A stretch of DNA of 64,000 nt from Candidatus Methanoperedens sp. BLZ2. Lineage in GTDB: Archaea; Halobacteriota; Methanosarcinia; Methanosarcinales; Methanoperedenaceae. The stretch is taken from positions 1 to 64,000 of the forward strand of contig NZ_NTMG01000040.1 of assembly GCF_002487355.1 (NCBI RefSeq). The letters run 5' to 3'. The stretch's first letter is position 1. Each line of letters opens with the position of its first letter. Positions 5,601-37,896 of the stretch are shown here, piece after piece. Position numbers and translations under genes: made by a program. The notes beneath the pieces were generated by a model. That model searched no databases. It saw only the letters and a list, made by a program, of their open reading frames with translations, and was not told where the DNA came from.

Positions 5601-6065
5601 CCACTGCGCAAGCTTTTTCAAGAAAATAATTGGGCAACCAGTTTCCCTGAAAGTAAGCTCATACTGACACCGCCGATGTTTAACAACATCTACAAAGGAG
5701 CTTTGGGTGAGGTATGTGGTCGCCATATTATACAAGATATTTTAAAAATTAACCTTAATGAATTGGAAGTTTCAGAGTTTGAGAAATTTGATTTCAAGAC
5801 TGAAAACAACATTTATTTTGACTTTAAACTTTGGAATGACCAGACTGCTGTTTCTGCGGATGAACATATCCCTAAGATTAGACGAAAAATGGAAGATTGT
5901 CATGCAAACCGTGTATTTATAATAAATATACTGGGAAAATCCGGGGACGAGTTTCACCCGATAATATCCACTGATGGTCGAATTATTGAGGTTCCTTTTA
6001 TTTGCCAGGGCAATTCTTTCAACGAAGAAGCGTTAAAATTTATTATGGAGGAATACCACAAATGA
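2613..6065 (+). CDS. Large SF2 helicase with C-terminal PD-(D/E)XK-like nuclease
   Basis: A 1150-aa protein. Walker A is MPTGFGKT (residues 22-29), Walker B is VVFIDEFD (about 224-231), a GTSATA motif III lies near residue 508, motif V-like STYPTIGAGQ near 700, and motif VI is QAIGRICRTN near 827. A long insert separates the RecA lobes. The C-terminus (about 1028-1075) reads LGEVCGRHII followed by IYFDFKLW, the E...D-x-K arrangement of a PD-(D/E)XK nuclease. The ATG follows GATGAGGT. The stop overlaps the next start as ATGA, so the two genes are translationally coupled. I infer an ATP-driven helicase-nuclease for defence. I do not recognise it as a component of a named system (Hachiman, Zorya, DISARM and similar), though a pPIWI-RE-type helicase is one comparison worth making. 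Confidence 0.7.
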   Translation: MQEILEKHCLNENANGLLLLSMPTGFGKTHNVLDFIYKHYKDFVAHNRKIFFITNLKKNLPYQKLQDRFRDDHAEDAYDQHVLFIDSNADAVINHLLSVDAQIPDQFKTKDYTHLKSFIETLKNGKRPSKMVKEALENEISEKLEPAFRESIQVYLHREFRTKKERLNAIKKDSNYQWIGNLYPAVFTDEKTILFLSMDKFIRKNTTLVERSYYFHERLLEKAVVFIDEFDATKENVLRSIIESGARHRINLLDLFLNIHNHLMESEYPESLLRESEQRRKISDGKNWRSPNEMIEIFRQKSDDIFKKYNLQHTCKSHEDFSYNKRNFLFYDFQFHHILNARNKRIEVVQDVKNRTNWIKTLEAGKEGSGINIRSLLSEIAGFLTYFQRRVSYLADNYCHLKIEDDTSQEVFPYEYAVRTVLYNFGLDADIVDFLTNNIIEGSMLSDPRSKNNAIQQKGFYDAGFRYYDIVDSDEHDTLSKIYMYNFYRTPESFLVGICSKAMVVGTSATAGLYTNIGNYDLEYLHSRLGQAFFRISGGPLDRIKNQFLETTRGYDQISIKTEFIGSDNPEETLTKLQSLLEDEEAAIALRNKVIYSNPDADKQKIEFIFSRYVRSLIVWKYFLDNPGIHAFFCFFNKFPKPDDPEFDLDVIRKYAELIQDGLTSVGNEPVHETVIVLTGDDFNDNKIGLLSELGGGKRRFIFSTYPTIGAGQNLQYPIPKSVHPIHINAFPARSEMDVEAIYLDRPTNLLVNIFKDNIDNEQFIKYLFQLEFLLENGAISPKEFNSKLDEAFHLFVGKRRQKKRAEDFTNLYQTEAYTRFLNKIVIQAIGRICRTNMKAPTIHILADSSIRRHLARFSLGDEIIPVREYTALLESAGETTVIPANIVQHQNRASNRSNTTAAFIHRQLKIQWTEDSIKQWQELRKYVLKHPTISEKEKCNSNWSLIYVELPSPRCSYRFTQEKDYRDTEVFFSNDKGKQEVSEQTARLPELMLIEPLRKLFQENNWATSFPESKLILTPPMFNNIYKGALGEVCGRHIIQDILKINLNELEVSEFEKFDFKTENNIYFDFKLWNDQTAVSADEHIPKIRRKMEDCHANRVFIINILGKSGDEFHPIISTDGRIIEVPFICQGNSFNEEALKFIMEEYHK

Positions 6066-8191
6066 GCATTCAAACAAATAAACTAAAAATCAACTTTAAT
6101 ATTGATGCCATCGAACGTGATTTTGCATTTATCCGACTTAAAAGGGAACAGAAAAATTACTTTGGAGCTCACCAGCTGGATCGGCTTTTGGGTGAGGAGT
6201 ATCAAGCAACATCTGTCATGTGGCAATACAGCAGTTTCGCTTATGCTATGTTCAAACGACCTGTGAATACTTACGAATTGATTTCCAAAATTCGAGCTGA
6301 TGATGATTTTTCTGATGATGCAGTCGTCGAAGCCGTGCCTAGAACCTATTGGACAGAAGCAGATGTTTGTATATCTGAAGCATGGCTGGCACAAATTTTG
6401 CTAAATTCCCTCGCTTCATCGAGATCGCGTTATAGACAGTTTCACTACTGTAACTTGACAGGTGCGCTACTCATTGTGCCTGACCTCAATAGCAAGGATG
6501 GGGATATTATTGATGCGGCTAAAGTTGTGATTAATAGAGATTATTTGCTGAATGTGCAAATTATACGCCATCGTAAATTGATATCTGTACAAAATGAGAT
6601 AAAAACAGGTAAAATAGCATCTGAAAGTATAAACAAGACCCCTCGTTATATTTTGAATGATGGTACAGGCACATTACGTAGGTTGTTGCCACGCGACGGT
6701 GAACCTGATGCGAAAAAAATCTATGTTCAACGCGGCATTCAAGGGAAAAAAGCAAACCGTAACTTTCTCGATTTCAGTTCTCTAGAACGTTATGAAGAAA
6801 GCCGAGCAGGCATTATGCATTATGTTTTGGATAGCTTCCGAGAACATCTCTCTGACTATATGTCTGTCGCATTATCTCCAATAGAGACGTTGCGCGCTGT
6901 AGAAAAATTGACAGAGACTATTTTGAAGATCCCTAATGTTCAGTCGAAACTTGATGGTCAAATGATTCATATAGTGGACAGAGTAAATTCAGAAGACTCA
7001 AATAATTTGGTTCAAAATTTGAAAGAAGCAATTTCACCATACCTATCGAATAACAAATTTTTGACCAATGGGAATCAAGACAAACACAATTCTCTGAACC
7101 TTAGAATTATACATGAGGCCGACTACTATCAAGAAAAAGGTGAAACGGATGAACACCTTGCTTCCAGTCCTGACTTTCGCAGGCAGCATGTTACTATCGA
7201 AAGCACAGAGGCCTTTCCAAATAATGCCGTAGTTAAAACAATTGTCAAAGAACTATTGATAAAACGTGACATAGGAGAAAGTAACCTTAGGCTATTTGAT
7301 TGGAGCAAATTGAATGCAAACCGAAAATGGACATTTGCCATAAATGATGACAAGTCAAAGCGCATTGTGTTCATGGATATTTCACCTGATGGCCATTTTG
7401 AGTTCCGAAAACTGGATGGAAACGATCTTTTTGGGCATGGTGAATACCAAGACTATGTCGAAATAATTAACGAAGCAAAAAATAAAGAATTTAAAACACA
7501 CCTCTTTCTAGAAGGTCTTATCATTTCCGAGGATGGGGATAAAAATTTAATATTCCGTACTGAAGAAATCACTATTCCTGACCTTACCAATATAAAGAAA
7601 CTAATTGCTGAAAAGGACGCTAAACTACCAGAAGGAAAGCAAATTGGAAGTGAACTGGCTCTAATTGTTGAACAATGCTTCGCTAAAGCATTTGAGACGG
7701 AAAATTACAAAGTTAATTTACTAATAGAAGAGCTACGCAAGATTGGCGCTCAGGAGTTATTAAAAGAGGATTTCAGGAAGATGTTAAATACAAATCTTGG
7801 GAGTACCTCGAAGGCAGCCGCCAAATTGAGGAATTACTTGCTTGAAAATCATAGTGTAAGGTTGATTTTTCCAAAAGACAATCAAAGTAAGGATGCACTA
7901 TTCGATTCATCTATAAATATCAACTATTTTGGAGAAACAGATTCTGAAGCTTACTACTTCGTTGGAGATCGCCGGGAGAATGTTCAATTCTCATTTAAAG
8001 ATGCCTGTCATCTCCGCAAGGTTGTTGCTGTGGATGGAACGAAGCTGATATTTAAGGAACTTCTCCGTACCATGAATGTTGATTTTGTTCGAACCGGACA
8101 AAGTACCGTTGTGCCTTTTCCGTTCAAATATCTGCGTGAATATATGAAATTTGAAGAAAATAAAGAGAATAGAGAGAATAGAGGGATTTAG
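6062..8191 (+). CDS. Uncharacterised partner of the helicase-nuclease
   Basis: A 709-aa soluble protein that I do not recognise. The ATG at 6062 overlaps the helicase stop (ATGA) and follows GGAGGA at good spacing. An upstream TTG at 6002 would extend it by 20 residues but has no SD. No P-loop, zinc cluster or membrane segment is visible. Two stretches look like conserved core: around residues 330-395 (LRIIHEADYY ... QHVTIEST), which loosely recalls a MID- or RNase H-like fold, and the C-terminus (YYFVGDRREN ... VVPFPFKYLREY). The C-terminal tail is charged (ENKENRENR), and its DNA shows a short GAGAATA repeat. Tight coupling to the helicase suggests one complex. The function is unknown. Confidence 0.7.
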   Translation: MSIQTNKLKINFNIDAIERDFAFIRLKREQKNYFGAHQLDRLLGEEYQATSVMWQYSSFAYAMFKRPVNTYELISKIRADDDFSDDAVVEAVPRTYWTEADVCISEAWLAQILLNSLASSRSRYRQFHYCNLTGALLIVPDLNSKDGDIIDAAKVVINRDYLLNVQIIRHRKLISVQNEIKTGKIASESINKTPRYILNDGTGTLRRLLPRDGEPDAKKIYVQRGIQGKKANRNFLDFSSLERYEESRAGIMHYVLDSFREHLSDYMSVALSPIETLRAVEKLTETILKIPNVQSKLDGQMIHIVDRVNSEDSNNLVQNLKEAISPYLSNNKFLTNGNQDKHNSLNLRIIHEADYYQEKGETDEHLASSPDFRRQHVTIESTEAFPNNAVVKTIVKELLIKRDIGESNLRLFDWSKLNANRKWTFAINDDKSKRIVFMDISPDGHFEFRKLDGNDLFGHGEYQDYVEIINEAKNKEFKTHLFLEGLIISEDGDKNLIFRTEEITIPDLTNIKKLIAEKDAKLPEGKQIGSELALIVEQCFAKAFETENYKVNLLIEELRKIGAQELLKEDFRKMLNTNLGSTSKAAAKLRNYLLENHSVRLIFPKDNQSKDALFDSSININYFGETDSEAYYFVGDRRENVQFSFKDACHLRKVVAVDGTKLIFKELLRTMNVDFVRTGQSTVVPFPFKYLREYMKFEENKENRENRGI

Positions 8192-26005: not shown

Positions 26006-26076
26006 GGCATTGATAAAGACTTCCCCCTGCGAACTGCGCAGGGGTCGGCGCTTGGCGCCTAAGTCATTATCATGCC
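26006..26076 (+). promoter_or_regulatory. Structured leader element 1 with CGAACTGCG loop
   Basis: A branched fold can be drawn by eye: GGCA (26006) with TGCC (26073), TGATAA (26011) with TTATCA (26067), an A.A mismatch, GACTT (26018) with AAGTC (26061). Inside are two hairpins: CCCCTG/CAGGGG closing the loop CGAACTGCG (26030-26038), and GGCG/CGCC. It lies 100 bases before the RPA gene, in a 421-base non-coding gap. The leader also holds hairpins CACCTC/GAGGTG (26121-26142) and ACTGC/GCAGT (26150-26164) just before the SD. The loop recurs in three other elements. Confidence 0.6.
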
Positions 26077-26176
26077 ACTTTTCATAAAATCCTATTGTAG
26101 TAGTCAGCAACGGCTACTGCCACCTCCAATTCAAAAGAGGTGTTAAACGACTGCTTAATGCAGTGAGGTTTAGAAT

Positions 26177-27145
26177 ATGAATACATCAACAATCGATCCA
26201 GTAATCGAAGATATCTATAGCCGCTTCAAAACGGCCGGTATAGAAATTGACCGCAATAAGATCAGGAGCAATCTTGACCGCCTTTTGGGGTACAAGGTTC
26301 CCCTGAATGAGGCATCAAGAACGGTAGTAACGATGCTCAGAAAAGAGTATAATGTCCCGTTCGATGCCTTCAAGCCTGGAAGTGCAGGATTTGTCCCAAT
26401 AGCCTCTTTAAAAGAGGACAATAAGTGGGTAACTATAAGAGGTAAGGTACTCCAGCTGTGGGAACCGAAGAGTGATTCCATAAGCCAGACTGGTCTCATC
26501 GGTGATGACTCCGGGGTGCTAAGGCTCACAATCTTCGCCAAGAGCGCGGAGAAGCTGGATGTGATACTGGAAGAGGGGGAGTCATATGAGCTCAGGAATG
26601 TAGTTTCATCAATATGGCAGGGTCAGATCTCCGTGAAAGCGAATTCGAACTCTGAAATAATCATGCTTGATACAGATATCGAGGTAAAGAGACAATCGGT
26701 TACAGTCACAGGAATTATAACTGAGGTATCAGCGGGTTCAGGTCTTATTAAGAGATGCTCCGAGTGCAAGCGCAAGCTCACAAAAGGAAACTGTGCAGAA
26801 CATGGCAGAGTAGAAGGGGTATATGACCTTCGACTGAAAGCTGTTCTCCAGGATTCAAGACAAGCCAATCCTCCTCAAACCATTGACCTGATAATGAACG
26901 CAGCTATCGTAGAGAAGCTCACTGGAATAAGTCTGCCCAGAGCGATAGAGCTCGCAACCGAAGCTCTGGATACAGCCGTAGTATCTGATATGATCGCTGA
27001 AAATGTGATCTTCCGGTATTACAGAATATCAGGAACGCAGCTTTCGAGCAATTTCCTTGTGGATGAGATAGTGCCTGTGGTTGGTATTACACGGCAGATG
27101 GCGACAGATGCAAAGAATCTCGTTTCAAGCATAGAGGTGAGTTAA
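26177..27145 (+). CDS. Archaeal RPA-type single-stranded DNA-binding protein
   Basis: A 322-aa protein of the archaeal replication protein A family. One clear OB fold covers about residues 75-165 (WVTIRGKVLQLWEP, TGLIGDDSGVLRLTIF). A zinc-finger region, CSEC and then CAEHG, lies at about 195-212 and is followed by a second OB-like part. The N-terminal 70 residues are helical. The ATG follows GAGGTTTAG, and the next gene starts directly after its TAA. It should coat single-stranded DNA in replication and repair. Together with the adjacent RPA-associated gene it may be the chromosomal pair or a mobile-element copy; the surroundings favour the latter. Confidence 0.85.
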   Translation: MNTSTIDPVIEDIYSRFKTAGIEIDRNKIRSNLDRLLGYKVPLNEASRTVVTMLRKEYNVPFDAFKPGSAGFVPIASLKEDNKWVTIRGKVLQLWEPKSDSISQTGLIGDDSGVLRLTIFAKSAEKLDVILEEGESYELRNVVSSIWQGQISVKANSNSEIIMLDTDIEVKRQSVTVTGIITEVSAGSGLIKRCSECKRKLTKGNCAEHGRVEGVYDLRLKAVLQDSRQANPPQTIDLIMNAAIVEKLTGISLPRAIELATEALDTAVVSDMIAENVIFRYYRISGTQLSSNFLVDEIVPVVGITRQMATDAKNLVSSIEVS

Positions 27146-28249
27146 ATGGAGAATTTTAAGAGACTTCCAGCAATCAGGATGCTGGCATCAGAGCTCATCG
27201 GTACAGTGGTAGAACTTCAAAGCGGGCAGAAGGACTCGTATCAACCAACTATATACCTCTCTCCAACGGGAGCAGAAGTCAACAGGGTCCTGATCGCAGG
27301 AACCGCAGTTGAAAAAGAGGATGTGGGTTCAGACAACTCCTTCTGGAGAGTCAGGGTAGCAGACCCAACCGGCGCAATATTCGTATATGCAGGCCAGTAT
27401 CAACCGGAAGCAATGAAGGCTATCCAGAAGCTTGAAGCCCCTTCCTTCGTGATTGTTTCAGGAAAACTCTCTCATTATACGCCTGAGCAGGGCGGAGAGA
27501 CAATAGTATCAATCAGAGCAGAGTCCATAGCGTCAGTATCTCTGGAGCTACGGGACCATGCCCTTGCAGATATATCAGTCCACACGATCAAACGCATAAT
27601 GGATGCTAAGACCAACAAGAATGTCCAATGTTACTACGGTAACTATGACTTCGGTTCACTGGCAAAGAGCATATCGGTTCTTCTTGATCAGATTGTTGAA
27701 GACTCGGAACAGGCTGGTGCAGTTCCCCCGGCCTCTGTTACTGCTCTGGAAGTAAAACCTGCAGAGACTCCAAAACCTCCAGAGGTTAAGCTTCCGGAAG
27801 CTCCGGTAACGAAGCCGCCAGAGTCGCCGAAACAGGAAGCGGTTTCACCCCCTCAACCTCCAGTAAAAGAGCCAGAGAAACCCGTTCAGGATGCGGGAAA
27901 AGGTGCTCCCGGAGAGAAGACTAAGAAGTCTCGCAAGAAAGAGACTGCAAAGGGCCCGGCTGAGCAACAGAAAGAAGCTCCAGGCGCATCAAAGCCGGAA
28001 ATGAAGCCTGAGCCGCCCAAGGAAGCCCCGAAGCCGGGTGCCACGCCGAATGTCCTGGATGACGCTGAGAAAATGGTTCTTGACATCCTCAAGACCCATA
28101 AACCACAGGGAACTCTCGCGAAGGATACCATAGCAAATGTCCTGAGAGCCCTGGGATACGCGATGCTGAACGTTGATGGCATCCTCGCGAAGCTCAAGTC
28201 GGCCGGTGAGATAATAGAACCAAAGGATGGTTTCTACCGAGCAGTGTGA
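27146..28249 (+). CDS. RPA-associated OB-fold protein (COG3390-like) with extended linker
   Basis: A 367-aa protein. The N-terminal OB fold (about 1-150) contains VNRVLIAGTAVEKEDVG and WRVRVADPTGAIFVYAGQY. Residues about 195-300 are a Pro/Glu/Lys-rich disordered linker. The C-terminal 65 residues form a winged helix (MVLDILKTHKPQGTLAKDTI). This OB-linker-winged-helix layout parallels eukaryotic RPA32. The ATG at 27146 abuts the stop of the RPA gene, so they are one operon and likely form one complex on single-stranded DNA. The linker is longer than I expect for the family. Confidence 0.8.
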   Translation: MENFKRLPAIRMLASELIGTVVELQSGQKDSYQPTIYLSPTGAEVNRVLIAGTAVEKEDVGSDNSFWRVRVADPTGAIFVYAGQYQPEAMKAIQKLEAPSFVIVSGKLSHYTPEQGGETIVSIRAESIASVSLELRDHALADISVHTIKRIMDAKTNKNVQCYYGNYDFGSLAKSISVLLDQIVEDSEQAGAVPPASVTALEVKPAETPKPPEVKLPEAPVTKPPESPKQEAVSPPQPPVKEPEKPVQDAGKGAPGEKTKKSRKKETAKGPAEQQKEAPGASKPEMKPEPPKEAPKPGATPNVLDDAEKMVLDILKTHKPQGTLAKDTIANVLRALGYAMLNVDGILAKLKSAGEIIEPKDGFYRAV

Positions 28250-28391
28250 AAATATGGGCTATAGTTTCCTGTTCCAGACGCGTCAGGCATAGTGTCGCTC
28301 ACGGTAGGCTCGTACGATTTTAAGCTCCTGGGTACAGTCCTCTATACCTGCTCGTAACACGCCTCCGACTCTGCACACGATTACCCTCCGT

Positions 28392-28441
28392 CTGAGGGGT
28401 GAAGGTTTCCACGAACTGCATGGAAACCATCACTCCCTCAG
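28392..28441 (+). promoter_or_regulatory. Structured leader element 2 with CGAACTGCA loop
   Basis: An almost unbroken 50-base hairpin. CTGAGGG (28392) pairs with CCCTCAG (28435), GTGA (28399) with TCAC (28430), then an A.A mismatch, then GGTTTCCA (28404) with TGGAAACC (28421). The loop is CGAACTGCA (28412-28420). Downstream, GCAGTAGTTCG (28472-28482) nearly complements the loop and lies just ahead of the AGGAGG SD of the next gene, so a loop-SD interaction is conceivable. The gap 28250-28501 holds no gene. Confidence 0.6.
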
Positions 28442-28501
28442 CCGGTATCCACAAGAAACGTGCAGATTCGAGCAGTAGTTCGATTGCTGCAGGAGGTTAT
28501 T

Positions 28502-28795
28502 ATGAATAAAATGCGGTTTGATGTTAAATGTGTTCGGGATTGCTTAGTGACCAATGGTGCTGTTTTTACGGTTAGATCATGGGAAGGTTATTCGGTTCTC
28601 TCGAAGGTTGAGGTTGATAAGGTTGGATTATGCACGAAGAAGAGGGTTATGCGCGTCACTCGTAAAGAGGATCTCACTCAGTATATCTCGCTAAGTGGAT
28701 TTACCTCTCTCGATGATTGGTGGGCGAAGATTGTCAGTTTCGGTGCTTGCGGTGGATGGTTATTCGAGGTCAGGGTTATTCCTGGCCGGGTTTAG
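28502..28795 (+). CDS. ASCH/PUA-like small protein
   Basis: A 97-aa protein starting at ATG 28502 with a strong AGGAGG SD. The pattern GAVFTVRSWEGY, VEVDKVGLC, and LTQYISLSGFTSLDDWWAKI resembles the ASCH fold, an RNA-binding PUA relative. The YxxLSGFxSxxxWW ending is the feature I rely on most. ASCH proteins act on RNA or modified nucleosides. It is followed after 8 bases by the SLOG gene on the same strand. An earlier ATG at 28460 would include the SD and is rejected. Confidence 0.5.
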   Translation: MNKMRFDVKCVRDCLVTNGAVFTVRSWEGYSVLSKVEVDKVGLCTKKRVMRVTRKEDLTQYISLSGFTSLDDWWAKIVSFGACGGWLFEVRVIPGRV

Positions 28796-28803
28796 GTATT
28801 ACC

Positions 28804-29238
28804 ATGGATAGAATTGCTTTTACTGGCCATCGCCATCTACGGTCATCTGAGGTTGTCCCGGCTCTGGCTGCGATCCATGCGAAATATCCTGATGCGATAT
28901 GGATTACCGGCGGTGCTATCGGACTTGATTCACTGGCTGCAGAATATGCCCGCACTCATGGTATTACCCTGTGGTTGATTCTTCCTTTCCCACAGAAGGT
29001 TATGACTGCCAAGTGGAATAAGGCTCAAGTTGACATGCTACGGTCACACATCGCATATTGTTCAAAGCTGTCGGTTCTGGCTCCGGTCTATAAGGCATCG
29101 GTTTACCAGGACAGGAATGTGCGTATGGTTGACTTATCTTCACTTCTATGCGCGTTCTTCGATGGCTCACCCGGCGGGACTGCCAATTGTGTGCATTATG
29201 CCAGGTCAATCGGCCATCCTATTCAGATGTGCCTTTAA
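28804..29238 (+). CDS. SLOG-fold (YpsA/DprA-like) nucleotide-binding protein
   Basis: A 144-aa Rossmann-like protein. The N-terminal TGHRHL (residues 6-11), WITGGAIGLDSLAAEYA (about 37-53), LPFPQK, and QDRNVRMVD with FFDGSPGGTANCVHYA match the YpsA/DUF1273 branch of the SLOG superfamily. SLOG domains bind nucleotides or nucleotide-derived signals, and some bind DNA (DprA). It is the second gene of a pair with the ASCH-like protein. The start was chosen at MDRIAFTGHR; a longer frame from 28717 overlaps the ASCH gene and is unlikely. The role is unknown; a sensor of a modified nucleotide fits both genes. Confidence 0.75.
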   Translation: MDRIAFTGHRHLRSSEVVPALAAIHAKYPDAIWITGGAIGLDSLAAEYARTHGITLWLILPFPQKVMTAKWNKAQVDMLRSHIAYCSKLSVLAPVYKASVYQDRNVRMVDLSSLLCAFFDGSPGGTANCVHYARSIGHPIQMCL

Positions 29239-29616
29239 TTTTTCATGATTCGAGAGGCATATCCATTAAAACAAGGATGTGTAAAGTCTGGGGTTTATCA
29301 AAATAAATCGGAAAGGCTATTTAATATATCCGTTACCTTTCTATTAATCTCTCCATTGGCTTTAGAAGGACCAAGTGCCTGACTCGAATAGACATTCACG
29401 AAAGTAGGACCTTGTATTTTCAGAAAAAAAACACTTCCTGCAAATCGTTCTTTCACGGCGCCTTCACTGGTCGTCCAGACGGTGTGATCACTCCCCTACC
29501 GGCTATACCCATTGCGAGTCCACTTCATGCAGGAGAAATCAAGCAATTGTCCATTGGTGCGTGTGGATATAGCTGCGGCAGCGGGGCTCGGTCAAAATTA
29601 GGCGCGTGCCACCCAC

Positions 29617-29667
29617 ATTGCAACCGTCAAAATTCGCGAACTGCGCGAATACGTCTTTTGTTGCAAT
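29617..29667 (+). promoter_or_regulatory. Structured element 3 with CGAACTGCG loop
   Basis: An outer helix ATTGCAAC/GTTGCAAT encloses CGT/ACG and then ATTCG/CGAAT around the loop CGAACTGCG (29637-29645). CAGTTCG at 29817-29823 is fully complementary to seven loop bases, so a pseudoknot or kissing contact is possible. It is part of the larger structured region. Confidence 0.55.
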
Positions 29668-29988
29668 ACGCATCCTACCCAATTCCCTGAAGGGAATGGC
29701 CGGCTGCCGAGAATAGCAAAGGCTGGGTACCCTACCCCAGCCTTCGCATGCTTGAGCGGTCAGCCGGACGCGCCAAATTTCGACATACCGCCCCTACACC
29801 CCTCGCAATCGCTGTCCAGTTCGCTGTTGCGAACACGAGGACAAATTGCGACCAAAGGGCTATCCACCCTTTGGAAACCGGACTGCTACGACGGGAAAAC
29901 CGACGCGCAAGATAAAGGTGGCGGCATCTCAGGATAATCGCTTTCGGTAGCCGAGCGCGCAAGCGCGCTGGGTACGACGAAGAATTAC

Positions 29989-30079
29989 GTAAGAAGTGGT
30001 GGGCGTCTGGCAAGATGAAGGATTGCCCCGAACTGCAGGGCAACCATCATCATGCCCACCGCCATTGATTCTTTCTTAC
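29989..30079 (+). promoter_or_regulatory. Structured element 4 with CGAACTGCA loop
   Basis: Stacked helices: GTAAGAA (29989) with TTCTTAC (30073); GTGGTGGGC (29996) with GCCCACCGC (30054); GATGA (30014) with TCATC (30047); an A.A mismatch; GG/CC; then TTGCCC (30023) with GGGCAA (30038) around the loop CGAACTGCA (30029-30037). The inner half shares TGAAGG, the loop and CCATCA with element 2, while every other helix differs in sequence but keeps its pairing. It lies 150 bases ahead of the ATG at 30230. Confidence 0.6.
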
Positions 30080-30229
30080 TCATTCTATTACAGGGCTACC
30101 GAAACCGTTATCCATCGACGCATCGCACGGCTCGCCACCATTATCAGCGAGTCGGTTTTCAATCCCATGGCGCAGACGACCGTGAGTCACTCATGGACGC
30201 ACTGTGACCAAGATTTTTTGGAGGTAAAT

Positions 30230-31708
30230 ATGAACAATATAGAACTTGAAGTGCCAAGAGACATGATCGGTGAACCGATATCGGATAAATCGTTTAACGA
30301 AGTTGCAGTTCTGGATACTATACATGAAGACCTGAAACTTGCATGGACTGTTTCTCCTGAATATGCGGTTGTTAAAGGTACTTCGCTGCTGATTAAGGAT
30401 GTACTGCAAACTGATAATGAATATGGCGTTACTGTCCAGACACGAGTAAAGATGACTGAAAAGTCGTCTCTTCCAATCCTGAAAACTATAAAGGCACCGA
30501 TATGTGATGAATGTCCTCATAAAGAGGAATGCACATTCATGTGTGAAAACAGGATAGACCAGCTGTTAAAAGAGGAAGCGGAGTCTAATAGGCTCCATTC
30601 TTCTCCAAAGCTGATAAACCAGGATAAGTATGTTGGAATAGAGAGGTCACACTGGACCCCAAAAGAACCAATGCCACTTAGCGGATGGGCGGAGACCATA
30701 TCAGGTAAGTTCTCACCAGCCAAGCCAAAACGCGCTATTGAGGTCATTTCTCTGGAACGCAGAGATTTCAAAGATATGACAATATACCCGAAAGGGTTCC
30801 CTGTTCCACTCATTTGCACTGAATCTTGCGATAAGGTTGATATCTGCAAACTGAGAGGCACAGGATTCGATGACCTGTGCAAGCATCACAACAAACTCGG
30901 AGAACTCGTTCATGAGGTACATCTCAGGTATCCTAAGACAACTATTAAAATAGATCCCTGGGTAAAGTCTCCATCGCCATCGAGGATGCGAGATAACTCC
31001 AAGTACCTCGGTTGTTACGATCCTGAAAACGTTATGGAGGCAATCGCAGAAAAGATACGCGTGACTCCTTGGGAATATCGCGCTTACATGGAAGACAGGT
31101 ACACCCATCGTAGAATCTACGTAGGTGACGATAATATGGTTCGAGAGTCTGAACTCAGTAAATCCATGGGAGAAGAGGATAATACGTTTGCTGCTTACTC
31201 TTCGCAGCAATTCCTGGATACATGGGATGACCCGGAAGAAGGTTCAGAGCTTGAATATACGATGGACACTGGCATGGCCTCTCGAAGCAAATCCCAGGCA
31301 GGATATGTACCCTCATTCTTATACAGGACTGTGTACCGTGACCGTAAGATACTACTCGGCTTCGAGTCCAGGAGGATTGAAAAGACCTACGTTGAAACCA
31401 AGCGCGAATGGGTTCATGACGCTTCAAGCGGCAACTGGTCTTACAGGGAAATTCCGGTTATACAGACTACGAGTTACCGCGATGATGTCCCAATATACAA
31501 GTGGATATCGCTCCCAACCTTAAGACCGATTGGCTGCTATCTGAAACCCGGGAAGGTCGTTGGCTCAAGTACGGTTGTTACTCGCAAGGAACGCAAGTTC
31601 GGTCATGATATGCGTGAGGTTGAGCGCCAAGCTTGCCGGCATGAGAGGATACTCATAGCCCAGGATGAGATTGATGCTCACAAACAGGTAGTTATGGCTA
31701 CCAGTTAA
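30230..31708 (+). CDS. Large Cys-rich protein of unknown function
   Basis: A 492-aa soluble protein with ATG at 30230 behind TTGGAGGT. Two four-cysteine clusters stand out: C92, C95, C101, C105 (CDECPHKEECTFMC) and C196, C200, C206, C217. Each could bind zinc or an iron-sulfur cluster. The C-terminal half is basic and aromatic-rich (KYLGCYDPENVMEAI, TPWEYRAYMEDRY) without a known motif. A longer open frame from 29996 runs back through structured element 4 and is rejected. It ends the RPA/ASCH/SLOG series and is preceded by the structured RNA region. I do not recognise the family; a replication or modification enzyme of a mobile element is possible. Confidence 0.6.
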   Translation: MNNIELEVPRDMIGEPISDKSFNEVAVLDTIHEDLKLAWTVSPEYAVVKGTSLLIKDVLQTDNEYGVTVQTRVKMTEKSSLPILKTIKAPICDECPHKEECTFMCENRIDQLLKEEAESNRLHSSPKLINQDKYVGIERSHWTPKEPMPLSGWAETISGKFSPAKPKRAIEVISLERRDFKDMTIYPKGFPVPLICTESCDKVDICKLRGTGFDDLCKHHNKLGELVHEVHLRYPKTTIKIDPWVKSPSPSRMRDNSKYLGCYDPENVMEAIAEKIRVTPWEYRAYMEDRYTHRRIYVGDDNMVRESELSKSMGEEDNTFAAYSSQQFLDTWDDPEEGSELEYTMDTGMASRSKSQAGYVPSFLYRTVYRDRKILLGFESRRIEKTYVETKREWVHDASSGNWSYREIPVIQTTSYRDDVPIYKWISLPTLRPIGCYLKPGKVVGSSTVVTRKERKFGHDMREVERQACRHERILIAQDEIDAHKQVVMATS

Positions 31709-31966: not shown

Positions 31967-32204
31967 TTCTTCCATTACCTTCTTTAGACGCATCCTCGAA
32001 ACAAGTACATTAGGACTAATCTTTTTTTAGGAATACAGTCAAAGGATAGCGAAAATTAGACCTCTTTGAATGATGAGTTTTACTATACTACAATTTAAAA
32101 GTTTTTATAGTTTTTAAAGCCTAGTATCTGCTTATTTTGGTCAATATGTCCCTAAAAAAAGGGTGAAATACTATATTTTTGTGATAAAAGTGTAGTATTT
32201 ATTC
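31967..32204 (+). repeat. Long inverted repeat, copy A
   Basis: About 238 bases that recur, reverse-complemented, at 56742-56990 with only a handful of substitutions. Copy A lacks an 11-base TTATCGATATA insert near its outer end. Its inner end is palindromic (AAATACTA...TAGTATTT around TTTTGTGATAAAA). No coding frame is evident. It lies just left of the insertion sequence. The rest of 31709-32245 holds only the TAG-interrupted zinc-ribbon frame. Confidence 0.9.
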
Positions 32205-32245
32205 TCAATGGTTTATCAGCTGGAAAAGCTCTGTTCAGTCCCTTA

Positions 32246-33538
32246 GGAATTACCGAAAAATAAATTAGCTAATCTTATCATGTAAGCCACCATATATGGT
32301 TGCATGGATACAAACAAGCAGTATACATGGTGGCTAAAAGCCCTCTCAGGAGCTGATGAAGTTCAAGCAAGACGTTTTGCAGGAGCTATAGCACTTGAAA
32401 TGGGTTGGGGCGGAATCTCAAGGGTGGAAGAGTTAACCGGAATGTCCCACTCAACCATCAGCAAAGGGATAGAAGAACTCAAAACCTCAGAGAAACTTGA
32501 ACAACCAGAAAGACTTCGAGTATCTGGCGGAGGAAGAAAAAAGATAGAAATAAAATATCCTGGAATAATTGAAGATCTTGAAAATATCATGGATGAAAAC
32601 ACTTCAGGAGATCCGATGAGTCTTCTAAAATGGTCAAATAAATCCACCTATAAAATCGCTGAAGAATTGGTAAAGCTAAACCATAAAATCGATCCAGATA
32701 CAGTAGGTCGTCTTTTAAAAGAAAATGATTACTCACTTCAAGCGAATAGGAAGAACATTGAAGGCTCTTCAGTACCAGAAAGAGACGCCCAGTTCAGATA
32801 TATAAACGAACGGGCTAAAGAATTTATAAATCAAGAGTATCCAGTTATATCAGTTGATGCAAAAAAGAAAGAAAATGTGGGAGAATTTAAAAATCCTGGT
32901 CAAATTTGGACAAAAAAAGGCAAAGCTAGAGAAGTAAATGTGTATGATTTTGCCTCACTTGGGATTGGAAGAGCGACACCTTATGGGATTTATGATCCCA
33001 AGAGAAATGAAGGAATGATAAATGTGGGGATGAGCTATGACACGTCTGAATTTGCTGTTGAAAGCATCAGGCAATGGTGGCTTCTTTTTGGAAGATACAA
33101 CTATCTGAATGCAAAAGGATTAATGATATGTTCAGATGGGGGAGGAAGTAATGGAAGTCGCAATAAAGGTTGGAAAATTCATTTACAGGAATTAGTTAAT
33201 CAGATTAAGATACCCATAACGGTCTGCCACTATCCTCCCGGAACAAGCAAGTGGAATAAGATTGAGCATTGCATGTTTTCATTTATTTCAAAGAATTGGA
33301 AGGGAACGCCACTTGTCAGTTTTGAAGCTATTATTAAACTCATAGGTGCCACTACAACAAAGAAAGGTCTTACTGTAGCAGCACGTTTAGATAAGAATGA
33401 ATATCTGAAAGGAATTAAATTTTCAGATGAAGATATGGCAAAATTGCATATGGAATCTCATGATTTACATCCAATATGGAATTATTCTATCTTGCCAAAA
33501 AGTGACTAATTTGGATAAGTTATTTTTCCGGTAGTCCC
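32246..33538 (+). mobile_element. ISAzo13-type insertion sequence, apparently complete
   Basis: A 1293-base element around one transposase gene. The left end GGAATTACCGAAAAATAA and the reverse complement of the right end, GGGACTACCGGAAAAATAA, match at 15 of 18 or so aligned positions, giving imperfect terminal inverted repeats. TTA flanks both ends as a possible 3-base target duplication (32243-32245 and 33539-33541). The length and single DDE transposase fit the ISAzo13 family. Confidence 0.8.
32304..33509 (+). CDS. ISAzo13-family transposase
   Basis: A 401-aa DDE transposase. The N-terminal HTH (GISRVEELTGMSHSTISKGI, about residues 35-55) is followed by the catalytic core: VISVDAKKKENVGEF (first Asp, about 190), MICSDGGGSNGSRNK (second Asp, about 274), and KWNKIEHCMFSFISKNW (Glu, about 316). 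The ISAzo13 signatures SDGGGSNGSR, PPGTSKWNKIEH and FSFIS are all present, so it looks intact and active. It occupies nearly the whole element between the terminal repeats. Confidence 0.95.
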   Translation: MDTNKQYTWWLKALSGADEVQARRFAGAIALEMGWGGISRVEELTGMSHSTISKGIEELKTSEKLEQPERLRVSGGGRKKIEIKYPGIIEDLENIMDENTSGDPMSLLKWSNKSTYKIAEELVKLNHKIDPDTVGRLLKENDYSLQANRKNIEGSSVPERDAQFRYINERAKEFINQEYPVISVDAKKKENVGEFKNPGQIWTKKGKAREVNVYDFASLGIGRATPYGIYDPKRNEGMINVGMSYDTSEFAVESIRQWWLLFGRYNYLNAKGLMICSDGGGSNGSRNKGWKIHLQELVNQIKIPITVCHYPPGTSKWNKIEHCMFSFISKNWKGTPLVSFEAIIKLIGATTTKKGLTVAARLDKNEYLKGIKFSDEDMAKLHMESHDLHPIWNYSILPKSD

Positions 33539-33540
33539 TT

Positions 33541-33571
33541 AGTTGTTTTTTTCTCTATTACTACTGGAAGG
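33541..33571 (+). repeat. Solo copy of a MITE terminal repeat
   Basis: AGTTGTTTTTTTCTCTATTA and the following CTACTGGAAGG match the terminal repeats of the MITE-like element at 38442-38652 with two or three differences. It directly abuts the right end of the ISAzo13 element, so the insertion sequence may have landed in an older copy of that element. Confidence 0.65.
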
Positions 33572-33572
33572 C

Positions 33573-34343
33573 CTACTCTAACGGCTTTTTCTTTAATCGC
33601 TCTAATAGCTTTTTTTGTTCCTTTTTTTCTTCTTCTATTTCATTCTTTGTATATGCAACTACTTCTATTCTTTTTCCTGTAGAAATCAAATGAATGTCTT
33701 CCTTTATTTTTTTGATTTCCTCAGCTATCATATAAAGGGGTGGATTTCCTGATTGAATCAAGCCTTCTAATTGAGAGAAATCGATTTTAAAAATATGGTC
33801 GTAAGATTTATTTGTTTTGTCTTGATAGATTACCTTAATTTCAAGACGCTTAGTAATCTTTTCTTCAAAATTTTCAACCATACTCGTTAGAAAGAAGATC
33901 AATTTTTGTTTTGGAGCAAAATAATCTAAGCCATTTTTTATATATCCGATATTGGATACAAACTTTCCTTTTTCGCATTCAAAGTCAGAAATGACTTCAA
34001 AACGGATATTACGGGCCGAACCTAATCCTACGTTTTCTATGACTATATCTATAAAATTAATCCACTCTTCACTTGGTTGAATGGTTATGCTTATTTCAGG
34101 CTCTGTTTGAGCTTGTCTCATTTTTGTAGTTTCTGAAACTAATATATAAGTTAAAAATGCATAAAAAATAGTTGCACTTGCCATTGCTGTATTCGAGTTC
34201 AAGAGTTCTAACAAAGTTGTTTTCACATGGTTAAAAGAGTCAAAAAAAATTATTGTAGCTACTATAAATCCACAAATCCAGCCTACTATTGCGCTCTTGT
34301 ATTTTGCGTGCATATAAATTAACCGCCAGATTTGGGAGGTCAT
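33573..34343 (-). CDS. Membrane-anchored protein with beta-sandwich domain, paralogue of the 55931 gene
   Basis: A protein of about 256 aa, or 288 aa from the TTG at 34439; neither start has a good SD. Two transmembrane segments lie near the N-terminus (AIVGWICGFIVATIIFF and TIFYAFLTYILVSE). They are followed by a beta-rich domain with DIVIENVGLGSARNIRFEV, and a Lys/Glu-rich C-terminal coiled coil. The gene at 55931 shares the two-TM plus (I)ENxGxGxAxxIxF layout. The soluble domain is probably cytosolic. The function is unknown; such proteins are common in accessory islands. Confidence 0.6.
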   Translation of the reverse strand: MTSQIWRLIYMHAKYKSAIVGWICGFIVATIIFFDSFNHVKTTLLELLNSNTAMASATIFYAFLTYILVSETTKMRQAQTEPEISITIQPSEEWINFIDIVIENVGLGSARNIRFEVISDFECEKGKFVSNIGYIKNGLDYFAPKQKLIFFLTSMVENFEEKITKRLEIKVIYQDKTNKSYDHIFKIDFSQLEGLIQSGNPPLYMIAEEIKKIKEDIHLISTGKRIEVVAYTKNEIEEEKKEQKKLLERLKKKPLE

Positions 34344-34414
34344 TCTGGCATTCCATCGCCTTTTGAGAGTTAAGACTTGGCTTGAAGATAGGGATTTTTG
34401 CCTATAAACCTTCC

Positions 34415-34651
34415 TTATTTTATCCTCAGTGCAGCCCAAATGAATAAAGTAAAAGGTAACCAGTAAGCAAAGAATATAATTTTATAGGCGATTCCTTCTG
34501 TTGATGGGTTTTTAATATCTTTAATAAAGCTTATTGGGTGTTTTTGACTATCCTCGCATAAAGGTAAAGCAGGATGAAAATTCTTTCTAAGAAAGCAGGC
34601 AGAAAGGAAGACGTAGATCCTGATTTCTCCCATTGCCTGGCAAAACTTCAA
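34415..34651 (-). CDS. Doubtful small frame with one hydrophobic segment
   Basis: A 78-codon frame ending in IIFFAYWLPFTLFIWAALRIK, a plausible single membrane segment. Its start lies over a plus-strand relic (34574-34737), it has no SD, and its N-terminus is of odd composition. It overlaps the longest version of the downstream gene by 25 bases. It is possibly real but may be the shadow of the relic on the other strand. Confidence 0.2.
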   Translation of the reverse strand: MKFCQAMGEIRIYVFLSACFLRKNFHPALPLCEDSQKHPISFIKDIKNPSTEGIAYKIIFFAYWLPFTLFIWAALRIK

Positions 34652-34737
34652 TTTACTCGGTCGATTTGAATTTCAAAGCAGCAAAGAAAGTCAATATCGA
34701 TGAGATGATTTGCCTTCTTGAACAGAAATTCGTATAG
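34574..34737 (+). pseudogene. Frameshifted small-gene relic
   Basis: ATG 34574 with AAAGCAGG upstream reads MKILSKKAGRKEDVDPDFSH ... KLQF. A one-base shift then joins SVDLNFKAAKKVNIDEMICL and LEQKFV-stop (TAG 34735-34737). Both halves have normal protein composition, which suggests a gene of about 55 codons broken by a frameshift. The family is not recognised. Confidence 0.35.
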
Positions 34738-34836
34738 CAGCAACTCAAAACAACCGATGAGAAGTTAGATCAAAATTCTTACTTTACCTTTATGCGGGGA
34801 TAGTCAAAAATACCCACGATGATACCAATGTAATAT

Positions 34837-34986
34837 TTAATTCATTTCTTTTCGTGCTGAGCACTCAAGGAATGGGCACGGCCAACAGTACCCTTCAAAA
34901 ATCTCACCGGTGTCCATAGGACAGTATCCTATTGGCCAATTCCTAGTCTTACGGTATTCCTCTGTAGCTTGACTTAAATGACTCAT
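34837..34986 (-). CDS. Small Cys-rich protein
   Basis: A 49-aa protein starting at ATG 34986 with GGAAGA upstream; a longer frame to 35037 is less likely. The C-terminal half reads GYCPMDTGEIFEGYCWPCPF then LEC, giving four cysteines in a zinc-ribbon-like or knuckle arrangement. It is one of several tiny metal-binding proteins in the window. The function is unknown. Confidence 0.45.
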   Translation of the reverse strand: MSHLSQATEEYRKTRNWPIGYCPMDTGEIFEGYCWPCPFLECSARKEMN

Positions 34987-35170
34987 AATGTAATCTTCCC
35001 GTCTCGCTTCAACATGCCTTGGGATGAGTATTAACATATAAGTTAAAATATATAAAATTTCTGTAACGGTGTTGTTTGCCCCATGACTGGGCCTAGTTGA
35101 GAGCGCTGATTTTAATTCCCTTTCATATTGTTGGATGGTATATTTGCGGGATCTTCCCCTTACTTTTTAA

Positions 35171-35206
35171 AATGCTACAATAATACAATAAAAGTGTAGT
35201 ATTTCA
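35171..35206. repeat. Palindromic AAATACTACA element
   Basis: The minus strand reads GTGAAATACTACACTTTTAT and continues to TTGTAGCATTTT, a palindrome with the same tips as the inner ends of the long inverted repeats (32165-32202 and 56742-56790). A half-site also lies at 55748-55765. It lies between the small Cys-rich gene and the DUF262 gene end. Confidence 0.5.
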
Positions 35207-35236
35207 CTTTTTTTTTAGTAATATCCTGGATACGAG

Positions 35237-36937
35237 TTATATTGATAATATCGAATTGATCTTATGAATTATCAGGCCTCTTCTTTCGCTTAAGAAATCC
35301 GTATAGTTTTCTATTTCCCAAAGATCTTCATTCTCTGGTATAAGATGTCTTTTAATATATAGATTTTTATTTTGCACAAAGTTTTTTATCCATTCTTTCA
35401 ATGGCTTGTTATTCTTTATCCCTCTGTTCGTGCCTGGATCTAATAACTGATAATTTTCAACTATATGAATAAATTGGTAATCATATTTGTTTTCTAAAAG
35501 TGAGATAGGATGGATGTGGTCTATATCTTGCGATCTTGTGATTGCTTCTCTATCATAGAGTATATAAAACAAAAATGTTTTTTCTAGGCTATTAAGATTT
35601 GATTCCTCGAAAGTATCATAAAAATATACTGGATGTAACCTATATACATCGAATAATTCTTTTATTGGAAAATCCTTTCCTTTGAAATTCTTTATTTTTC
35701 CTAATATCTTTTTTATACCTGTTTTATAAGGAATCCAACCCGCACCTTTGCTTTTGAAAACTCCACTCAAGAGAGATAGATACATCCATTTATACAAGTT
35801 CCTGTAATCAGTATTTGTTGTGTCATAAGTAACAAAAATATCTTTCAATTGATCGTCCGGAATGCTTTTATTAAAGATATGATAAGCTACAAAATACAGA
35901 GGTATAAAAGAACGATTTTCGTTCTTATAGTAATCATATAATTTTGCAGCTATTAAGAACATCTTTAATGCTTTTAATGTTTCTGCGATTCTTTTATTAT
36001 TATTTATTGCAAAAGTAGCATCTTCTTGCTCTATATTAGACATCTCTTTAGATTGGTTATCACTCAAAATGAATACGAGCTTAATGAGTGTATCTTGGGT
36101 TATCCCAATATCAGTATAATCTTTAAGAATTTTATCTAAGAATTCTTCCATCCCCCATTCATAACCTTTTAATTTTGATGCTACTAAGTCAAAAGATGAT
36201 AACTTTGTTCCTCCATCGTTTAACCTAATGAATAATTCAACCACTCTTTGCCTATTTGCAACTGGATCTAAAGCGCGATTAATTGTAACCCTGGCGAGAC
36301 CGACATGCTTACTACTAAAAACATTTTTGTAAAAAGTTCTAATATTCCTGGCTACATGTTCTTTTTGTTTTTCATTAATAATATTTAATCTTTTTATAAT
36401 TTCATCTGCTACTTGATCTTCATTATTGGTTTCTTTAAGGCGCATAAATAATGATGGTATCGAAATCCATTTTGTTTCTTTAAATGCATCCTCATTTCTA
36501 TCTTGATTTTTCTTAGGTAATTTTGATTCATCATTTTCGAATTCAAAATCAAATTCCATGTTTTTAAAATCGCTAAATAAGTCAAAATACAATATCTTTC
36601 TATTTATGCTACCGGTAAGACCGATATAAAAAGATTGTAACCTTTGTTGACCATCAATCACAAGATTATGATTTCTTTCTAACTTAATTTTGCTAAAAGA
36701 ACTTTGTGGCTTCCCATCTTTTGTAAAGTATCTAAAGGCAAACAAAGGTTCAAAATTTGCCTCCTCCTGAATTGTCATTATTCCACCAAAAGATTCTCCC
36801 TTCAATAAAGTATCAAATAATAGCTCCATTTTGTCTTCAGCCCACACAAGCCTTCTTTGGATAACTGGTAAAACTAATACATTTTCAAAAATATCGTTTA
36901 TGGTATCAGATACTGATTTTGATTCCCAATTTGACAT
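35237..36937 (-). CDS. DUF262/HNH (GmrSD-like) protein
   Basis: A 566-aa protein. The N-terminal DUF262 (ParB/sulfiredoxin-like) domain has VLPVIQRRLVWAEDKMELLF and the nucleotide-binding motif LVIDGQQRLQSFYIG (about 92-106). A C-terminal DUF1524-type HNH nuclease has RSQDIDHIHPISLLENK (about 480-495). This is the layout of GmrSD-type modification-dependent restriction enzymes, although target specificity varies widely. The ATG at 36937 is preceded by GAGGATAAAC. The length is usual for single-chain members. It stands alone; no methyltransferase is nearby, which fits a type IV (modified-DNA) enzyme. Confidence 0.85.
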   Translation of the reverse strand: MSNWESKSVSDTINDIFENVLVLPVIQRRLVWAEDKMELLFDTLLKGESFGGIMTIQEEANFEPLFAFRYFTKDGKPQSSFSKIKLERNHNLVIDGQQRLQSFYIGLTGSINRKILYFDLFSDFKNMEFDFEFENDESKLPKKNQDRNEDAFKETKWISIPSLFMRLKETNNEDQVADEIIKRLNIINEKQKEHVARNIRTFYKNVFSSKHVGLARVTINRALDPVANRQRVVELFIRLNDGGTKLSSFDLVASKLKGYEWGMEEFLDKILKDYTDIGITQDTLIKLVFILSDNQSKEMSNIEQEDATFAINNNKRIAETLKALKMFLIAAKLYDYYKNENRSFIPLYFVAYHIFNKSIPDDQLKDIFVTYDTTNTDYRNLYKWMYLSLLSGVFKSKGAGWIPYKTGIKKILGKIKNFKGKDFPIKELFDVYRLHPVYFYDTFEESNLNSLEKTFLFYILYDREAITRSQDIDHIHPISLLENKYDYQFIHIVENYQLLDPGTNRGIKNNKPLKEWIKNFVQNKNLYIKRHLIPENEDLWEIENYTDFLSERRGLIIHKINSILSI

Positions 36938-37002
36938 GTTTATCCTCACGAATCAAGAATATAACTACAAGTGTGTGTATATTATATGACGGTTATATAA
37001 AA

Positions 37003-37674: not shown

Positions 37675-37896
37675 TAGGGGTATTGCTACGTAAGCTGTCA
37701 CCAGGGGCAGAGTTTTTTGACAGTTATGTTCGACCTGTCACCCGTAACTGTTTCCTGCCATTGCATGGAAGCGACATTTGAGTTATCCTGAATCACGAGT
37801 GTGTTAATGCTTCGATGTCCACAATTCTCAGGCGCAAAGCTGCAGCCACTCCAAAATACTCTGCCCCCAGTGACAGCTTACGTAGCTCTACCCCTA
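37675..37896. mobile_element. MITE-like element 1
   Basis: A 222-base element with long terminal inverted repeats. The left GGGGTATTGCTACGTAAGCT and following GTCACC match the reverse complement of the right end (GGGGTAGAGCTACGTAAGCT, GTCACT), continuing to GGGGCAGAGT, about 40 bases in all with few mismatches. No transposase fits inside, so it must be mobilised in trans. The remaining 37569-37949 holds no gene. Confidence 0.8.

Follow-up and report, generated by a model that had tools for sequence, protein, structure and literature searches.

The iron-responsive element (IRE) recognized by iron regulatory proteins (IRP) consists of a CAGUGN loop and a C bulge 5 bp below it on a paired stem of variable sequence, and it is found in several unrelated mRNAs. 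Targets of CsrA/RsmE, of which CsrA is bacterial, carry GGA in the loop, usually overlapping the Shine-Dalgarno (SD) sequence, and these systems use one hairpin in mRNA leaders and many in the sponge RNAs CsrB/RsmZ. Repetitive extragenic palindromic (REP) and IS200/IS605 hairpins, which are recognised by Y1 transposases, keep the sequence of the stem or of a flanking tetranucleotide. The targets of the ANTAR proteins EutV, NasR and AmiR lie in mRNA leaders ahead of a terminator and are composed of two linked hairpins with mainly structural stems and conserved residues in hexaloops of the form AxxGxx (A at position 1, G at position 4) (PMC3369931). Here, we describe a hairpin with the loop CGAACTGCR (R, A or G) found in a 64,000-nucleotide (nt) stretch of Candidatus Methanoperedens sp. 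BLZ2 (contig NZ_NTMG01000040.1, positions 1 to 64,000; the window). Methanoperedens are freshwater anaerobic methane oxidisers; only a few systems of control at the RNA level have, to our knowledge, been described in archaea, and none was found for this genus. The element is a recurrent hairpin with a fixed loop, a stem that varies freely and stays paired, and a conserved mismatch. From sequence comparisons we infer that it acts as RNA and that CGAACUGCR is the apical loop of a module probably read by one trans-acting factor controlling gene leaders of mobile replicons.

The word CGAACTGCR was found four times in the window, always on the + strand (26030, 28412, 29637 and 30029), while 0.45 occurrences are expected and none of 100 shuffles reached four. 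The loops are closed by perfect stems of 6, 8, 5 and 6 bp, respectively. The coordinates listed in the initial annotation were exact, and its four paired stems were confirmed. The whole genome (3.74 Mb in 85 contigs, the window being contig 69) has 35 occurrences, and the flanks of the 27 others that could be read pair over 0–4 contiguous bp only. Among these, the occurrence at 18582 of contig C49 belongs to a related, short type of hairpin and has an A.A mismatch; that at 68423 of C36 is a degenerate copy of the same type. An unbiased scan, in which every 9-base loop closed by at least 5 Watson–Crick pairs was ranked by its number of different perfect stems, placed CGAACTGCR first in the window with 4 stems. 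No other loop exceeded 2, apart from reverse-complement readings of the same hairpins, and the same maximum of 2 stems per loop was found in 20 Markov-simulated windows. In 304 kb of related loci the loop was closed by 15 distinct stems and the next unrelated loop by 2. The nine-base loop originally proposed needs one correction: since two of its bases can pair as G-C, with C-G or C.A outside this pair, the apical loop is effectively a pentaloop, AACTG, closed by G-C.

Covariation was assessed in an ungapped alignment of 24 hairpin cores (21 distinct) over eight stem pairs. All eight pairs showed two-sided changes (67 cells in total). The covariation score was 0.92, compared with 0.23 after shuffling and 0.09–0.16 when the partners were slid by 1–3 columns; phylogenetic relatedness is kept by the slid controls and is removed neither by these nor by the shuffles. 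The covariation first suspected within the window was strong across the 24 cores and was lost once the partners were slid. The loop was CGAACTGCR in all hairpins except three with CGAACTACR (two in genome G030 and one in G027), and its ninth base tracks the closing pair, being G with G-C in 25 of 25 cases and A with C-G or A-T in 19 of 21. A homo-mismatch is conserved below the stem, an A.A located 8 bp down in the elements named E2 and E4 (Table 1) and 3 bp down in a short type of hairpin. In three genomes the short type has C.C in place of A.A, so that the mismatch was kept rather than replaced by a pair. The A.A mismatch attributed initially to E1, E2 and E4 is present in all three, but in E1 it sits under a three-way junction and not directly below the hairpin. 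The combination of a conserved apical loop, an irregularity at a fixed distance below it, a variable stem and unrelated mRNAs is reminiscent of the IRE/IRP system. The differences are the pentaloop AACUG within G-C/C-R, the A.A or C.C mismatch at 3 or 8 bp and the location in archaeal mobile loci.

A model built from the 24 cores was used as a search query and the candidates were then inspected. Further copies were present in relatives: of 31 Methanoperedens genomes, 15 together have about 46 hairpins judged convincing, spread across the genus but patchy. No match outside the genus was obtained with this model at E <= 0.02 among 238 genomes of the class, and three scans of a viral collection (two with DNA patterns, one with a protein alignment) returned only chance matches, none with stems. 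Rfam 15 had no family at its gathering score in the window or in the relatives, in agreement with the initial statement that no described RNA motif with this loop was known. The matches below that score were miRNA-like long hairpins and one CRISPR-DR7-like stretch, the best reaching E 4e-4 with a CRISPR-repeat model. A literature search with the word CGAACUGC found no such motif described in the library searched, and a paper on Methanoperedens plasmids makes no mention of stem-loops. The idea that the loop has a partner in a known RNA with which it pairs in trans was also considered and rejected, as no Rfam RNA lies at the loop word in 20 other loci of the same genome. The general traits of a cis-regulatory leader RNA are present, namely a conserved structure, sense orientation and a position upstream of the start codons of different genes. 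Because the defining loop features of IRE, ANTAR and CsrA targets were tested for and are absent, the hairpins would represent a new cis-regulatory or protein-binding family, so far confined to one archaeal genus. Like ANTAR targets, they have structural stems, conserved loop residues and a leader position; unlike them, they occur singly, with CGAACTRCR as a loop of 9 nt or effectively a pentaloop, and no such dual arrangement was seen.

Table 1. Location of the hairpin elements and of the genes associated with them (window positions unless a locus is given).
Feature	Position	Strand	Remarks
E1	26011..26072	+	three-way junction; loop 26030-26038; 147 nt before the accessory RPA start codon
Accessory RPA-like gene	26177..27145	+	downstream of E1
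RPA-associated gene	27146..28249	+	second of the pair
E2 frame	28369..28466	+	long hairpin 28392-28441; loop 28412-28420; 90 nt before ATG 28502
97-aa protein gene	28502..28795	+	downstream of E2; no Pfam match
SLOG gene	28804..29238	+	YspA, cpYpsA-related
Large structured noncoding region	29440..30230	+	upstream of the Cys-rich gene; holds E3 and E4
E3	29632..29650	+	ATTCG[CGAACTGCG]CGAAT, within the large region
E4	30009..30056	+	GGCA-A-GATGA-A-GG(a)TTGCCC[CGAACTGCA]GGGCAACC-A-TCATC-A-TGCC
Cys-rich protein gene	30230..31708	+	downstream of the structured region
Zn-ribbon microprotein instances	loci L043 (4257), L150 (1680), L155, L158, L159, L032, L033		

The hairpin is embedded in several leader architectures. 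In E1 it forms one arm of a three-way junction with the layout TGATAA-A-GACTT / hairpin CCCCTG[CGAACTGCG]CAGGGG / hairpin GGCGC-TTG-GCGCC / AAGTC-A-TTATCA. At eight homologous loci helices 1 and 2 were 100% paired, with a covariation score of 0.229 versus at most 0.10 for slid partners. Five genomes have this junction ahead of the accessory RPA gene; G022 has it before RadC and before a gene of unknown function as well. A copy of the E1 leader of RPA in G022 (contig C6; locus L040, 900–1110) carries about 170 nt of inserted sequence containing inverted repeats (AATAGTGAT..ATCACTATT); the copy on C123 is without it. The E2 frame is composed of a basal helix P1 (CTCTGCAC/GTGCAGA) and an internal loop (ACGATTACCC / CCACAAG). 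At seven loci 98.5% of the cells of its hairpin were paired and the covariation score was 0.271, compared with no more than 0.05 for slid partners. The distance from the E2 loop to the AUG is 89–100 nt before three unrelated start codons with an SD, those of the 97-amino acid (aa) protein, a DUF1848 protein and, in the case of a diverged copy, a protein whose match to an N6-methylase is no more than marginal. Homologs of E4 with compensatory changes were identified by DNA search in two relatives, G030 and G006, 61 nt upstream of an open reading frame (ORF) for a 38-aa Zn-ribbon protein; their base stem encloses the SD (GTGAGGTGA) and has the compensatory change GGC/GCC to GAC/GTC. At least nine genomes have scattered copies of the short dispersed type, GCGAC-A-CTG[loop]CAG-A-GTCGC, which come after a GGCGCGCC hairpin and a TATA-like stretch and are free of the E1 and E2 frames. 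In addition, a near-identical dispersed repeat, GGCGCGCCC[CGAACTGCA]GGGCG..., was observed in G008 (two copies) and G023 (L106 674, L107 6980, L110 2682) and is perhaps a mobile element with the same loop.

Overall, the leader hairpins are located in sense orientation 60–190 nt ahead of about eight unrelated genes, which include those for the accessory RPA, RadC, the 97-aa protein, DUF1848 and Zn-ribbon microproteins. The accessory RPA shares 79–91% identity with its counterparts in three relatives and about 46% with the chromosomal RPA. Three of the window elements had been placed 60–170 bases before a start codon; E1 and E2 are within this range, but E4 is 201 nt from the ATG at 30230. The gene after E2, initially called ASCH-like, gave no hit in Pfam at a cutoff as loose as E = 10. 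The Zn-ribbon microproteins (38–60 aa, CPxCxExMP..CDNCGxPAH) form a family of which every instance found is led by one of these structured leaders. In five loci a 40–60-aa microprotein of this kind comes after an E2 frame that has other inner arms and no CGAACTGCR loop. Since such frames and the E4 homologs lead the same microprotein family, the loop is a module that can be exchanged within a wider group of leader RNAs.

The noncoding region that holds E3 and E4 is strongly structured, the fold of positions 29240–30230 being nine standard deviations better than shuffles (z −9.0). In four relatives the homologous Cys-rich gene is preceded by a counterpart with 1–5 CGAACTRCR hairpins, and in STD1_19 five hairpins are contained within 300 nt. 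The DNA search that gave the E4 homologs also recovered pieces of the region in two further genomes, and inspection of all these loci yielded many more hairpins. A second conserved hairpin, CCAAAGGG[CTATCCA]CCCTTTGG at 29848–29889, is kept in G022 and G023, and on contigs C22 of G030 and C67 of G006 the large noncoding region that precedes the Cys-rich gene has a repeated motif, a hairpin followed by ACGGATAAATGGCCGGGC-AAA-GCCCGGC. The CRISPR-DR7-like stretch is a lone one at 29248–29285 (31.8 bits; gathering score 37). A large, strongly folded noncoding region of patchy distribution recalls GOLLD, ROOL and OLE, from which this one differs by its repeated identical hairpin caps and by having no Rfam match at gathering score. 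The occurrence of single hairpins in leaders and several in a noncoding region is also similar to the CsrA/CsrB arrangement, but the loop is without GGA and there is no general overlap with the SD.

Considering these data, the stem and the mismatch would display the loop for recognition by a single trans-acting factor, most likely a genus-wide protein, whose binding would determine how the mRNAs downstream are translated or how stable they are (those of the accessory RPA operon, RadC, the 97-aa protein, DUF1848 and the Zn-ribbon microproteins). This factor would also be bound, and may be titrated, by the copies clustered in the large RNA and by those of free-standing elements. One-sided G.U changes, which are present in the short dispersed type, also speak for an RNA module. 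More tentatively, and with less confidence than the module itself, the hairpins could define a post-transcriptional regulon of archaeal mobile replicons, in which one RNA-binding factor reads CGAACUGCR hairpins in the leaders of replication and repair genes and a large noncoding RNA of the same element, bearing up to five such hairpins, serves as a sponge or an assembly scaffold. The proposal of the initial annotation that these are cis-regulatory RNAs or protein-binding hairpins is partly supported, by the sense orientation, the similar distance to the start codons of unrelated genes and the sequestered SD in the two E4 homologs.

Several observations weigh against an RNA module read by one factor. 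Some copies, such as that at position 10372 of G022 contig C6, have no co-directed gene downstream. The E2 frame, ACGATTACCC opposite CCACAAG, is also found with quite different inner arms and without the CGAACTGCR loop, in the same genome (C27 and C49) and in five others. The SD of the E1 and E2 leaders was predicted to be no less accessible than in control genes; a general occlusion mechanism is therefore unsupported, and general SD sequestration in these leaders was rejected. Co-occurrence pointed to no universal partner protein, as the hairpins are present in 15 genomes, the 97-aa protein only in four (G000, G006, G023 and G030) and the Cys-rich protein in five, its relatives having been found only in the four other genomes that hold the locus (MnB_21, METP1, E14 and STD1_19), all of the window's own genus. 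This distribution rules out both proteins as the universal binder. The AlphaFold models of the two were too poor for a fold search. Finally, G.U pairs are rare for an RNA, with 0 of 140 paired cells in the 24 cores and 6 of 260 in a larger set of hairpins.

The alternative that survives best, although improbable, is that the loop is an intramolecular block, part of a tertiary contact or of a ligand aptamer, in riboswitch-like leaders without a trans-acting protein. The occurrence of the module inside larger conserved frames that also carry other inner arms, and of a multi-hairpin region with a strong fold, speaks for this explanation. The same hairpin is found, however, in the short dispersed elements that have no such frames, the genes that are led have no evident common metabolite pathway, and no conserved complementary loop or receptor was noticed, no systematic search for one having been made.

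Because G.U pairs are nearly absent from the core stems, a role at the DNA level was retained as well, and we consider it slightly less probable still. The hairpin, single-stranded or as a cruciform, would then be a site for an HUH/Y1-type transposase, a primase or a replication protein of a mobile element, possibly together with RPA. The accessory RPA gene adjoins, the copies are dispersed and repeat-like, and DNA folds of the single elements are as significant as the RNA folds (z-scores of −2.3 to −5.7). Conversely, wherever a gene with a clear SD follows, the hairpin is in sense orientation to it, which holds for about eight unrelated genes; the spacing is constant in E2, and the base stem of the E4 homologs contains the SD. 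Imperfect palindromes and dispersed copies are shared with REP and IS200/IS605 hairpins, but here the stems are not conserved as they typically are at those ends: they vary freely around a fixed loop in gene-leader positions. The initial suggestion of a single-stranded DNA signal used with the RPA proteins found nothing specific in its favour, and most copies are distant from any RPA gene. That the hairpins arose by chance at a frequent 9-mer is an explanation with almost no probability left; it would fit the mild over-representation of CGAACTGCR in the genus, but the controls with slid partners and the loop scan refute it.

The hairpins share the window with a large defence island extending to 23.4 kb (UvrD-PDDEXK, Schlafen-HATPase, type IIG restriction-modification and SNF2-PLD genes). 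Within it, at 2613–8191, a 1150-aa gene that matches DdmD, the plasmid-defence helicase-nuclease (E 5e-48), is followed by an unassigned 729-aa gene that could be a candidate DdmE-like partner. A GmrSD/HEC-05-like defence protein is encoded at 35237–36949. At 32152–35218, 49-nt inverted repeats 3 kb apart enclose an ISAZ013-type transposase gene (32304–33509) and an ORF (33573–34439), which suggests an insertion sequence whose ends lie about 3 kb apart. Two long inverted repeats with arms of 40–45 nt separated by 130–200 nt are located at 37675–37896 and 34535–34816.

The presence of a fixed-loop, free-stem hairpin in unrelated leaders and in a large structured RNA makes it a bait for finding the partner that would read it. 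The hairpin family may also be a handle on how the mobile elements of uncultured archaea control their own replication genes.

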